This document shows positions 5,861 to 10,252 of a DNA stretch of 29,534 nucleotides, in pieces (the stretch's first letter is position 1; the number at the start of each line of letters is the position of its first letter). The notes below the pieces were generated by a model, which saw only the letters and a program-made list of their open reading frames with translations, was not told the origin of the DNA and searched no databases. Source of the stretch: a virus. Both the position numbers and the translations under genes were made by a program. The stretch covers positions 1 to 29,534 of IMG/VR virus record IMGVR_UViG_3300048997_000489; one strand, given 5' to 3'.

Positions 5861-6913
5861 TTAGACTCCCGGAATTAAGCCGGTAAAGGGAATGTCGCGG
5901 AAGCGGCGGTAGTGGAGGATGTAAATGAAGCCGCCGGGGACGCCCAGGGCGGTTTTCTTTTCGTACCTGAGAAGCGGATTATTGGTGATCGGGGTGGGGT
6001 TCGGGACGGCGGCATTCAGGCCATATCCCACCCTAATGACGGGATCCAGCGGCTTGCCTTCAAGGTCCAGATAGGCGGCCTCCGTCAATTTCACAGGGCC
6101 AATGGTTGTGTCGGGTACTCCAGAGGGGCGGTAGAAGTAGTCGGTAACCGGCCCGTTGCCGGCCGGATCGGTGCTGATTCTCGCCCGCCACCCGATCGTC
6201 CCTTTGTTGACGCGACGCACGTCCCACGCGTCAGAAAATTGATTGACATCGGTCGCGTAACTGCCCCGCACTTCCATGCACCATCGCACTTTAGGGAACG
6301 GCGAGATGTTCGTGAAGGTGCCCACCGGCGCATAGCTCTTGAGTCGCACGGTGCCGGGGCGGAGCGACGTGTTGAAGGCAACGCCCTTGATCTGGAAGGC
6401 GTCGGAATTGAGTGTGTTTTCGATGGTGCCCGCGTAATCCGCGTCGTAAAAGGGAACGAATCTTTCGACGATCAACGTCCGCGTGCCGATATCGGTCATG
6501 CTGGGCGGGTCGAACGGCTGCCCCGCGGCGGTGACGATGGGGGAGCCGTTCGGGTCGTATTCCAACTCGGCCGAAGTCAGCGACGGTTGCCACGAAATGA
6601 TCGGGGGCTGGTGCAGCGGGTCCAGGCCGAGGGTGACGTTGGGGAAGCCGTACTCCCCCGTGACGAGGGTGATGTTGAGTCCCTCGTTGCGGTCCGCCGA
6701 CGTGTTCAGGCAGGACAGGAAACCCGAAAGCGGGTGTTCCGTCCCGATCGCCAGCGGGTAAACGCCCGGTGCGCCCGCCGCGGCGGCGTTGAGCGCGTCC
6801 TGCTCGCTGGCGGCGTAGGCGACGCAGAGCGTGCGCGTCGCCGTCCATTTCGTCACGTCCCAGTCGTAATGGAGACGCCGGGCGGACCAGTTTTCTGTGA
6901 CTTCGACGGCCAT
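5861..6913 (-). CDS. Distal tail / baseplate-like structural protein, unknown family
   Basis: 350 residues, directly after the tape measure gene (two-base gap), where lambda-type phages encode distal tail and hub proteins. The sequence is mixed alpha/beta with many aromatic and Pro residues (for example Trp-Gln-Pro-Ser, Val-Arg-Trp-Cys-Met-Glu-Val-Arg-Gly, and Tyr-Ile-Leu-His-Tyr-Arg-Arg-Phe-Arg near the end). It has no transmembrane segment or catalytic signature I recognise. It could be the distal tail protein or an analogue of the lambda M/L proteins. That role rests on gene order alone; that it is a tail protein is likely. Confidence 0.65.
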   Translation of the reverse strand: MAVEVTENWSARRLHYDWDVTKWTATRTLCVAYAASEQDALNAAAAGAPGVYPLAIGTEHPLSGFLSCLNTSADRNEGLNITLVTGEYGFPNVTLGLDPLHQPPIISWQPSLTSAELEYDPNGSPIVTAAGQPFDPPSMTDIGTRTLIVERFVPFYDADYAGTIENTLNSDAFQIKGVAFNTSLRPGTVRLKSYAPVGTFTNISPFPKVRWCMEVRGSYATDVNQFSDAWDVRRVNKGTIGWRARISTDPAGNGPVTDYFYRPSGVPDTTIGPVKLTEAAYLDLEGKPLDPVIRVGYGLNAAVPNPTPITNNPLLRYEKKTALGVPGGFIYILHYRRFRDIPFTGLIPGV

Positions 6914-6915
6914 GT

Positions 6916-8535
6916 TTATTTAACGGTGATGGATTTAATGAGGTCGTCGAGCGACTGCTGGATCTTCGCGGCGTCTTGCCCCTGGGCGATGATCGCGTCG
7001 ACGATCTTCTGCTGCATTTCGAGTTGCCGGTCCTCGAACGACCGCACCCCGGCGGCGAAAGTCTCGCGCATTCCGGTATCCCCCGCGCCCATTTCGTTCT
7101 GCTGGGAAAACGGGGACGTGGGCGGTCCTATCTGCCCCATCTTCATCTTCGCGACTTCGGCCTTTTGCATCGCGTCGTAGACGGGGAGAAGTGCCAGCAA
7201 TTTCTTCCGCTCCTCCTCCGGAAGGTTCTGCGCTTCGCGGAGGAGGCGGTTGAGTTCCGCCCGCTTGACGTTGTATTTTTCCTGCACCCCCAGCACTTCC
7301 GAGGCCGCCCGCGCCGCCTGATTTCCCATCGCGGCCTCTTCCTTCAGGATGTCAAGACGCAGGGACGCGACCGTGTGGCGGCGCTGGTCCGCCTCGTCCT
7401 GTGCGGAGTTGGCCGAGTCCTGCTTGAGTTTCGCCGCGTCCGCGGAAAACCTTTCGTTGATCGCCTTCCGCTTCGCCTCCGCGTCCTCCTGAATCCGGCG
7501 CGATTCGTCCCCGGCGGCGGCGAACTCGTTGGTCCCGCGCTCCTTCGACCGCTTGGCCGCGGCCTCCTGTGCGGCGGCGATCGCCTGATCCTCCGCCCGC
7601 TCATTTTCCTCAATCTCCCGCTGGTGCTGCCGCATCAACAGGAGCAGATCGGCGTCGCCGTTCTGGTGCTCCCGCCGGAGCCGCTGGGCCTGTGCCTGCG
7701 CCTCAAGGTCCGCCGCCTCCTGCCCACTTCTAAACGTCTCGTCCTTGTGCTGCCTGTTTTCGTCGCGGTCCTGTTCCGTGCGGAGCTTGCGGTAGCGGTC
7801 CCGAATCTCCTGCACCTCGGCCTCGCTCGCCTGCGTCCGGTTCGCCACCTCGGCCTGCATGTCGCCGACCACGCGGTTCTGCGCCGGCGTGCGGTTCCAG
7901 TGCTCCCGCTCATACCGCTCCAGCCTCTCTCTCGCCGCCGCGACCTCGGCCATGCCGGCGTTGGCCTTGGCGTCCACTTCGATCTGTTCCGCCGTCGCCC
8001 CGTTGAGGCGGTCTTGCGCCAAGATCAGTGCGGTGATCGCGTCCGCGTTGGCGTTGTACGCCTCCCGCTGCGCGGCATAGGTTTCGAGGGCGTACCTCCG
8101 CATCCCCTCGCGCGACCGCTGCCTGTTGATTTCCGCTTCGCTGGCCCCCTCCTCCACCAATCTCGCCGCGCGGTAATCCCTCCACGCGCTGATGACCTCC
8201 TCAATCGCGCCGGCCACGTGGCCGAGGACGGGTACGTTTTCTTTGAAGGTGTCGTTGATCGCCAGGAAAATCGCGCGGTCCCGCTCCGCCTCGTTTCCCG
8301 CAAGCTCCATCTCTTCGGTGTATTTGCGCAGGAATCCGGAAGTGATTTCGGCGCTCTTGGCGACCGCCTCGAACGCCCCGACGACTACCGCCCCGCCGAC
8401 CGCAGACTTGACCAATTCCTCGCCGCCGCCGCTCTCGAGGAATTCGGCCAAGCGGTGCTGAAATGAGTTGAACGCGTGCGCCGTCTCGTCCCGCGCGGTG
8501 AGCTTGATCGATACTTCTTTGGCCTGTTCCGCCAT
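6916..8535 (-). CDS. Tail tape measure protein
   Basis: 539 residues, almost entirely charged heptad-like helix (Glu/Arg/Ala/Gln rich) from about residue 100 to 470. A short Gly/Val/Ala hydrophobic patch lies at about residues 42-60. This pattern, together with its place just after the chaperone pair and before the distal tail genes, is diagnostic for a tape measure. It would set tail length during assembly and be ejected with DNA. At the usual rule of about 0.15 nm per residue it predicts a tail near 80 nm, shorter than that of lambda. No peptidase or lytic transglycosylase domain is visible. The start lies two bases after the end of the frameshifted chaperone reading frame. Confidence 0.82.
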   Translation of the reverse strand: MAEQAKEVSIKLTARDETAHAFNSFQHRLAEFLESGGGEELVKSAVGGAVVVGAFEAVAKSAEITSGFLRKYTEEMELAGNEAERDRAIFLAINDTFKENVPVLGHVAGAIEEVISAWRDYRAARLVEEGASEAEINRQRSREGMRRYALETYAAQREAYNANADAITALILAQDRLNGATAEQIEVDAKANAGMAEVAAARERLERYEREHWNRTPAQNRVVGDMQAEVANRTQASEAEVQEIRDRYRKLRTEQDRDENRQHKDETFRSGQEAADLEAQAQAQRLRREHQNGDADLLLLMRQHQREIEENERAEDQAIAAAQEAAAKRSKERGTNEFAAAGDESRRIQEDAEAKRKAINERFSADAAKLKQDSANSAQDEADQRRHTVASLRLDILKEEAAMGNQAARAASEVLGVQEKYNVKRAELNRLLREAQNLPEEERKKLLALLPVYDAMQKAEVAKMKMGQIGPPTSPFSQQNEMGAGDTGMRETFAAGVRSFEDRQLEMQQKIVDAIIAQGQDAAKIQQSLDDLIKSITVK

Positions 8536-8537
8536 GA

Positions 8538-8941
8538 TTAAAATCCGAGGGGTTTGGACGCCCGGAATTGGTCTTCAATCTCCCACGCCAGCCGGCAGCA
8601 TTCGACGAACTGGTGGGACTGGTCGAGGGTTCCCCCCGGAATGGGATAGCGGTTGCGCTTCGCGTCGGGGGCGTAGAACTTCACCAGCCCCCATACGTCG
8701 GGCGTGATGACGTCGAACGGGCAGGTTTCCAGCGGCTCGGGGTCGAACTTCGCGCCGCCGCACCGCGGGCACTTGATTTCGCCTTCGGTGTCGAAGCCTA
8801 CGGAACCGTCTCCGCCGCACTGGAGGCAGGGGATGTTGATCCGGTCGTGGCCGCCGGAAGGCTTGTGGCACTTTCGCTCGCCGAAGCATTCTTCGCAGAG
8901 TTTTCCGTAGCGGATCGCCGTCGCAAGAGCGATTTTTTTTT
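8538..8941 (-). CDS. T-like extension of tail assembly chaperone, reached by -1 frameshift (zinc-ribbon-like)
   Basis: After the nine-A run, shifting back one base gives 131 open codons ending in TAA at 8540-8538, two bases before the tape measure ATG. The frame has no plausible start codon of its own, so it must be translated as a fusion with the upstream G-like protein (117 + 131 = 248 residues). The extension is clearly protein-like: paired cysteines Cys130-x2-Cys133, Cys139, Cys153-x2-Cys156-Gly-Gly-x-Gly, Cys172-x2-Cys175-Gly-Gly and Cys188 (fusion numbering) resemble DnaJ-type zinc ribbons. A Trp- and aromatic-rich tail follows. In lambda, GT is made the same way and recruits the tape measure; the T part binds the tail tube protein. 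A metal-binding T domain would be a distinctive variant. The frame is seen in the sequence; the frameshift is inferred. Confidence 0.75.
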
Positions 8942-9283
8942 AAGCAGGAAGTCGATCTTCACCAACTCCGTGGCCCGCCCGATCAGTTCCCACTTTTCCA
9001 TCGGGGACAGGACGTCGTCGAAGGACCCGACCGCGAAAGGCTTGTCGATGTTCCTCCACGTCACCAACTGAATCGCGAGGACCCGGTTGAGCAGGTCGTT
9101 TATGTCGACATTGACGTCGCCGCCCCGGTCCTTTTCGTAGGCTTCGGCCGTCAGCCGCCCCACCTCGATTGCGTCGCGGCAGGTCAGGTGGCGGCAGACG
9201 AAGGTCGGGCGGGGTTCCGGCTTTTCGGAGTCGAGAACGAGAACGACGTCGACGGTTTGGGAGGGGTCGAGGGCGATGGGCAT
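8798..9283 (-). CDS. Tail assembly chaperone, G-like (zero-frame product)
   Basis: 161 residues, between the tail tube and tape measure genes, the classical place of lambda G/GT. Residues 1-117 look like a compact globular domain (Val-Asp-Val-Val-Leu-Val-Leu-Asp near the start, Cys30 and Cys35, a helical Asp-Ile-Asn-Asp-Leu-Leu-Asn-Arg-Val-Leu segment). After Lys115-Lys117, coded by nine consecutive A, the zero frame continues for 44 residues of Ser/Ala/Thr-rich low-complexity sequence to a TAG at 8800-8798. That tail looks like a non-selected reading of the overlapping frame. No strong Shine-Dalgarno is visible before the ATG. The protein is expected to act only during assembly and not be part of the mature tail. 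Confidence 0.78.
   Translation of the reverse strand: MPIALDPSQTVDVVLVLDSEKPEPRPTFVCRHLTCRDAIEVGRLTAEAYEKDRGGDVNVDINDLLNRVLAIQLVTWRNIDKPFAVGSFDDVLSPMEKWELIGRATELVKIDFLLKKKSLLRRRSATENSAKNASASESATSLPAATTGSTSPASSAAETVP
8933..8941 (-). other. Slippery run of nine A: probable programmed -1 frameshift site
   Basis: On the coding strand the zero-frame codons are Leu-Lys-Lys-Lys followed by TCG, with AAA AAA AAA forming an uninterrupted nine-base A run. This contains A-AAA-AAA slippery heptamers. A one-base backward slip moves ribosomes into the open 131-codon frame that ends beside the tape measure gene. It is the position where lambda and most tailed phages have a tail chaperone frameshift. Confidence 0.78.
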
Positions 9284-9316: not shown

Positions 9317-10252
9317 TTACGAGAAGATCATCGTTACTTCGTCGTCCCCGGCGCTCTTGGCGCAGACGAATTCGAGCTGGTCGCGCTTCAGTCCGGACGA
9401 ATCCTTGTCCTCCGGCGCGGAGTTGAGGGCGAGCACTGGGGCCGTCAATTCAAAGGCGTTGCCGGTCGTTCCCACCTTGAGGTCGAACGCGTAAGTGGTC
9501 GCCGCCGCGTGCGCGGCATACCAGTCCTGGGTCCCCAGCGGCAGCGATTCGGGGTCAATGCGGATCATCGGCTTGCGGTCGGTAACGACGGCGGCGCGGT
9601 AGCCGCTCACGTCCGTCGGGTCTTCGCGCAGGTAGACGGTCGCGCCCCAGTCGAATTCGAAATCACTGATGCGGTAGACGGTCCCGCCAACGGTGAACGT
9701 GGCGCCGGCGAACCGTGGGGGGATTTGTGTCGGGTAGGTGATCGCGCTGGGGATGGCGGTCGACGTGGGCGCGACCCATCCGCCGGTGAAGGTCCACGTA
9801 ATGAGCAGCGGGTCGCCGCTCTTGCCTTTAATCTTGAATGTTCCGGCGCACCCCTTGGCGGACATCAGTCGCCCCGCCTCGTAAGAGCCGATCGTCGCCG
9901 TATTCATCGGATTCGCGGCGGTGGCAGTCTGCGGAGTAAACGTGCCCGCGGTGTTCAGCATTCCGCACGCCGGTAGGAGGATCGTCGCCCACGCCGGCGC
10001 TCCGGTGTTGGCGAAAACCTCGCTGGTGAACGTGACGGTCGCCTTCCTCGCCCCGGGAACGGGCTTGAGTTTCGAGAGGTACTGCTGCCCCTGCCGTTCG
10101 TAGGCGGGGATTTCCGGCTTGATGTTGATGTCGCGCAGCACGCCGAAGACGCCGCACGCCGCGGCGTCAATGGCGGCGGCGGTGCCCGTCGTGGTTTCGG
10201 CCGCGACGCCAAAGACCCTGTTGCGGGTCAGGAGGGTTGTATCGAGCGCCAT
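9317..10252 (-). CDS. Major tail tube protein
   Basis: 311 residues, rich in Thr, Ala, Gly and Val. The sequence is beta-rich, with alternating strands such as Ala-Thr-Val-Thr-Phe-Thr-Ser-Glu-Val-Phe, Pro-Leu-Leu-Ile-Thr-Trp-Thr-Phe-Thr-Gly-Gly and a Phe-Glu-Phe-Asp-Trp-Gly segment, as in tail tube subunits of the lambda gpV type. There is no signal peptide. It lies immediately upstream of the G/GT chaperone gene and downstream of the tail terminator, the conserved tail tube position. GAGG eight bases before the ATG is a fair ribosome site. The family-level call is by position and composition, not by a diagnostic motif. Confidence 0.75.
   Translation of the reverse strand: MALDTTLLTRNRVFGVAAETTTGTAAAIDAAACGVFGVLRDINIKPEIPAYERQGQQYLSKLKPVPGARKATVTFTSEVFANTGAPAWATILLPACGMLNTAGTFTPQTATAANPMNTATIGSYEAGRLMSAKGCAGTFKIKGKSGDPLLITWTFTGGWVAPTSTAIPSAITYPTQIPPRFAGATFTVGGTVYRISDFEFDWGATVYLREDPTDVSGYRAAVVTDRKPMIRIDPESLPLGTQDWYAAHAAATTYAFDLKVGTTGNAFELTAPVLALNSAPEDKDSSGLKRDQLEFVCAKSAGDDEVTMIFS

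Follow-up and report, generated by a model that had tools for sequence, protein, structure and literature searches.

A lambda G/GT-type tail chaperone locus of a bacterial virus with a conserved -1 frameshift site and a probably metal-binding T domain

How two overlapping reading frames between the major tail protein gene and the tape measure gene of a bacterial virus are expressed, and what kind of domain the second of them encodes, is the question raised by a contig obtained from a metagenome. The window, i.e. the whole stretch of 29,534 nt analysed here, comprises positions 1-29,534 of IMG/VR record IMGVR_UViG_3300048997_000489, and all of its features named below lie on the minus strand. 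A preliminary description of this DNA had noticed a run of nine A and had proposed that it serves as a -1 slip site as in the G/GT gene of phage lambda, giving access to a metal-binding T part. We verified in the sequence that the run (8933-8941), located in an ORF of 161 aa (9283-8798), consists of three in-frame Lys codons (zero frame CTT AAA AAA AAA TCG) and includes the heptamer A AAA AAA. The -1 frame is open from 8933 to 8541 (131 codons), carries no start codon (ATG, GTG or TTG) ahead of the first CxxC and terminates with TAA (8540-8538) two bases from the ATG of the tape measure gene at 8535, all as described before. This T part (8538-8933) is accessible by frameshifting only. The G part, comprising the 117 codons from the ATG at 9283 through the A run (8933-9283), is common to G and GT, and a -1 slip at any point of the run gives an identical product (KKK-IALA) of 248 residues. 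Without a slip, G is extended by a Ser/Ala/Thr-rich tail of 44 codons followed by a stop (8798-8932). The A9 is unique in the window; in dinucleotide shuffles, the mean number of such runs was 0.12, and at least one was found in 8 of 100 shuffles.

The gene in front of G (9317-10252) encodes the major tail (tube) protein (PHROG 290, E 8e-11), which is the presumed partner of T. The gene behind T (6916-8535) was assigned to the tape measure protein, the presumed partner of G, by its position and by the coiled-coil look of its 539-aa product; a profile search with this product gave no match, and the relatives described below show clear tape measure sequences. Beyond the tail genes, the window encodes a 509-aa protein (695-2224) that by eye resembles a TPR protein whose second half is glycosyltransferase-like.

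Neither a direct tblastn search with the 248-residue fusion against isolate phages nor a single-protein scan of viral contigs returned a relative. The neighbouring PHROG 290 tail protein, used as query, led to one relative (L001, 47% identity), which shows the same pair of overlapping frames and whose T part is 34% identical to that of the window. From an alignment of these two tail proteins, 14 loci were obtained, all of which have G followed by T in the -1 frame, and wider tail-protein alignments yielded 66 and 80 loci. The only match from one scan of bacterial genomes was a contig of 4.4 kb (L029, 1-4456) from a Microbacteriaceae MAG, perhaps a prophage or else phage DNA that was misbinned. 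Gene order is not the same throughout: a tail-region protein of 330-350 aa lies behind the tape measure gene in the case of the window (5861-6913) and ahead of it in L001 (7816-8799). In L001 (6988-7461), the G part also has an insert with four cysteines of its own (CEGC ... GC ... DC), which might form an additional metal site.

For a test of the reading frames, the open frames of every locus were compared with profiles of G and T. Both parts were found in 119 loci (88 distinct), and T was at -1 of G in 119/119 of them, with no case of a fused or a +1 arrangement. The junctions of the 100 distinct T loci carried A AAA AAA (61), A AAA AAG (24) or A AAA AAC (7), i.e. a heptamer of the type A AAA AAN in 92 cases, and this heptamer was kept in 21 of the 23 non-isolate clusters (50% identity). 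The remaining eight included C CCA AAA in two loci (L017 and L018), G GGA AAC in RHph_I4 and four isolates for which the automatic pick was misplaced, the actual sites being A AAA AAC (RcZahn, JP1), A AAA AAG (RcDurkin) and G GGA AAC (L338C). The sole non-canonical site among the 100 was G CTT TTT in L001. With regard to stimulatory signals, nothing clear was found in the window for a downstream RNA structure (z -0.6), and the family mean z of -1.4 was calculated with codon constraint uncontrolled. Shine-Dalgarno-like tetramers upstream of the site were present in 34/76 cases compared to 58/270 control stretches, codon constraint being uncontrolled here as well; both signals are suggestive at most.

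These data allowed us to weigh other origins of the two frames. Since A9 runs are error-prone and the window contig is metagenomic, G and T could in truth be one continuous gene that was split by a homopolymer error in sequencing or assembly, and a one-base difference of this kind had been named beforehand as a possible refutation. This is extremely improbable, as the -1 offset recurs without exception, also in relatives resembling cultured phages and at sites with no more than A7, A6G, A6C, A4 or T5, and no relative had T in frame with G or at +1. The family is thus not a sequencing artefact, because the same offset is shared by some 90 distinct sequences whose slip sites differ. Transcriptional slippage is possible on runs of nine or more A, and the window does carry such a run, on which RNA polymerase might slip and give rise to a mixed mRNA pool coding for both products. 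The A AAA AAG, A AAA AAC, C CCA AAA and G GGA AAC sites of the relatives, however, are typical ribosomal tandem-slip heptamers whose runs are too short for the polymerase. The conserved offset and the variety of the sites therefore favour tandem ribosomal slippage, and slippage by the polymerase appears quite improbable.

A separate T protein, initiated at an internal or a non-standard start or arising through reinitiation, would fit with the ATG, GTG or TTG codons that precede the first CxxC in 64 of the 100 distinct T frames and with gene 28 of RcZahn, which is annotated with a start of its own. We regard this as very unlikely, since there is no such start in the window, 84 of the 100 frames have no ATG in this region and the junction has a conserved slip heptamer. 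In addition, reinitiation would lose the first Cys pair of the window, which precedes the zero-frame stop. T halves are missed by gene callers, as they have no start codon.

In order to assess whether the second frame is under selection, which the preliminary description had left as a possible point of failure, pN/pS values were estimated from relatives, as the window is without a close neighbour. Past the overlap, the value was 0.09 for the T frame compared to 1.7 and 2.5 for the other two frames (135 pairs), and inside the overlap, it was 0.02 for the -1 frame and 2.6 for the zero-frame tail (177 pairs), all of these figures being descriptive since the pairs are non-independent. In a clade with 51-codon tails, the respective descriptive values in the overlap were 0.31 and 1.1. 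These values indicate that T is under strong purifying selection in the relatives. The low complexity of the zero-frame tail, noticed before, is real, and the corresponding tails of the relatives are unconstrained; the tail probably arises as a by-product of the overlap with the T frame, which would explain its low-complexity look.

The Cys pairs reported earlier for the T part (130/133, 153/156 and 172/175 in fusion numbering) were recovered, as was Gly-Gly behind the last two of them, but the resulting count of six cysteines has to be corrected: the motif has eight, and the two that had been overlooked, C139 and C188 (C22 and C71 of the T domain), rank with the best-conserved positions of the family. 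The eight cysteines fall into an outer quartet (8721-8897) consisting of C13 (8897-8895), C16 (8888-8886), C22 (8870-8868) and C71 (8723-8721), and an inner quartet (8760-8828) consisting of C36 (8828-8826), C39 (8819-8817), C55 (8771-8769) and C58 (8762-8760). In an alignment of 100 distinct T domains, the outer cysteines were each present in 95-98 sequences and the inner ones each in about 80. Counted per sequence, with truncated contigs and isolates set aside, 75 T domains had both quartets complete, 11 had the outer one only, one (L132) had the inner one only and one (L001) had four outer and three inner cysteines, its inner motif being shifted (CVC ... CPLC, one residue fewer). After thinning at 70% identity, these classes contained 29, 6, 1 and 1 sequences, respectively. 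None of the counted T domains had lost two cysteines, and the isolate phages have the outer quartet only.

The loss of whole quartets, outer and inner separately, points to two Cys4 metal sites, and the proposal that T binds metal thereby becomes a strong one. The patterns fit two independent sites of this type in T, probably occupied by zinc. The cysteines might also form disulphides, a redox switch or an iron-sulphur centre, and the weak profile matches of T, none of them near its cut-off, do include IBR and a ferredoxin-like family besides zinc ribbons. Such non-zinc roles are nevertheless unlikely, as most of these matches are zinc ribbons and as the CxxC pairs vanish in fours, independently for the outer and the inner set, just as Cys4 metal sites would. 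In the Synechococcus phage MinM1 (L153, ON981384.1, 1-403), the zero frame ends in ...DAAKN and a stop, and a -1 T-like frame follows, which has the LP..GG..DQ.AW half, is free of cysteines and, by eye, belongs to the same T family. A helical half without cysteines implies that metal is not required in every T member and, together with the outer-only isolates, makes a structural role of the metal more likely than a catalytic one.

The cysteine pattern of T resembles the central CXXCXGXG domain of DnaJ in that there are four Cys groups, for which pairing of the outer with the outer and of the inner with the inner groups is possible, and one motif (CLQCGGDG) fits that of DnaJ. In contrast to DnaJ, only one repeat of the four does so. 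The profile check suggested in the preliminary description gave 12.6 bits with the Pfam DnaJ-type zinc domain compared to a cut-off of 32.7, and the DnaJ structure 1exk was matched at E 8.5 only. Homology of T to DnaJ is thus unsupported and the likeness is one of analogy. A functional variant of this comparison, in which the Cys4 sites act as a DnaJ-like client-binding module that holds the major tail protein, metal occupancy gates the start of the tail tube, and the sites are gained or lost whole with the frameshift being retained, seems doubtful to us.

Compared to Pfam and NCBIfam, T gave nothing at a curated cut-off, and its PHROG matches were weak, scattered and in no case convincing. 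The AF2 model of T (mean pLDDT 69.7) shows a short helix at the N-terminus and further helices in the second half (8541-8720), with a poorly defined Cys region between them. This half contains the conserved columns CP and LP/IP..GG.LDQS followed by a long C-terminal helix, with helices modelled at residues 78-92 and 103-125. A fold search with T in PDB and BFVD, with the Cys region poorly modelled, gave nothing significant. The AF2 model of G was of higher confidence (pLDDT 90.7). Foldseek found no match to it at E < 0.001, and in a second fold comparison the HK97 tail assembly chaperone 2ob9 appeared with a Z of 5.2 (rmsd 4.7, 89/107 aligned) that ties with unrelated PARP chains, so that this likeness is no more than suggestive. 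Among 61 G parts of the family, 9 matched Phage_TAC_4 of Pfam (PF08748) with E values of 0.1 or lower (best E 8e-5), and one (L006) exceeded the curated cut-off (21.3 vs 21.1 bits); the G part of the window itself matched no Pfam family including this one.

In phage lambda, a -1 slip produces GT at a ratio to G of about 1 to 30, and G binds the tape measure protein whereas T binds the major tail protein (PMC5009743). The window shares with lambda the order of major tail protein, G, T and tape measure protein, the location of T at -1 without a real start of its own and the slip site near the end of G. It differs in the slip site (A AAA AAA compared to G GGA AAG) and in T, since lambda T is without cysteine and has no evident likeness to the window T. 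Counterparts are found in the cultured phages RcZahn, RcDurkin, RHph_TM16, L338C, RHph_I4, JP1, P24 and Mae-JY22, which have the outer quartet, an LP..GG..Q core and canonical heptamers. A profile of these eight T parts plus that of L017 matched the window family with a probability of 99.3% (E 3e-20). Unlike in the window, the cultured-phage T parts have the outer site only, and they were deposited as hypothetical (in most cases), truncated or separate genes. For the Rhodobacter phage RcZahn (L005, MW677529.1), no clear frameshift signal was reported (PMC8601537). Around 6344-6368 of this genome, we found a canonical site (A AAA AAC) and a T domain at -1. GAA AAA AAC lies in frame four sense codons ahead of the stop of gene 27, and the -1 frame there leads straight into an outer-quartet T. 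The phages S-CBS1, S-LBS1, RC1, ThpS-P1, ZX4290 and Loki likewise have a -1 overlap after a related or equivalent tail protein, with A AAA AAC or G GGA AAC as slip sites and a T without Cys quartets. For the first five, no homology between these T parts and those of the window family was detected by profile comparison; Loki was judged by eye only.

Taken together, the locus is very probably a chaperone gene of the lambda G/GT type that uses programmed -1 ribosomal frameshifting and whose T belongs to an undescribed, probably metal-binding family. In this scheme, for which we infer the frameshift efficiency, the zinc and the binding partners, most ribosomes would produce G with a meaningless 44-residue tail and a minority would shift back by one base within the A run and produce the 248-residue GT. 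By analogy to lambda, G would coat the tape measure protein and T would recruit the major tail protein to it, with T predicted to begin with a short helix, followed by two nested Cys4 sites that most likely hold structural zinc and by the conserved helical half.

While the frameshift mechanism is of an already established kind, the metal-type T domain is undescribed in the libraries and papers searched, and an earlier description of zinc or CxxC in tail chaperones was not found in the open-licence literature. The slip site of RcZahn is at odds with the published remark on this phage. T constitutes a recognisable family that is absent from the searched family libraries and whose sharp motif is carried by about a hundred viral contigs and several cultured phages. 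As small and possibly foldable metal domains, its members lend themselves to structural studies, and the loss of entire metal sites in some of the phages amounts to a natural experiment on the role of the metal.
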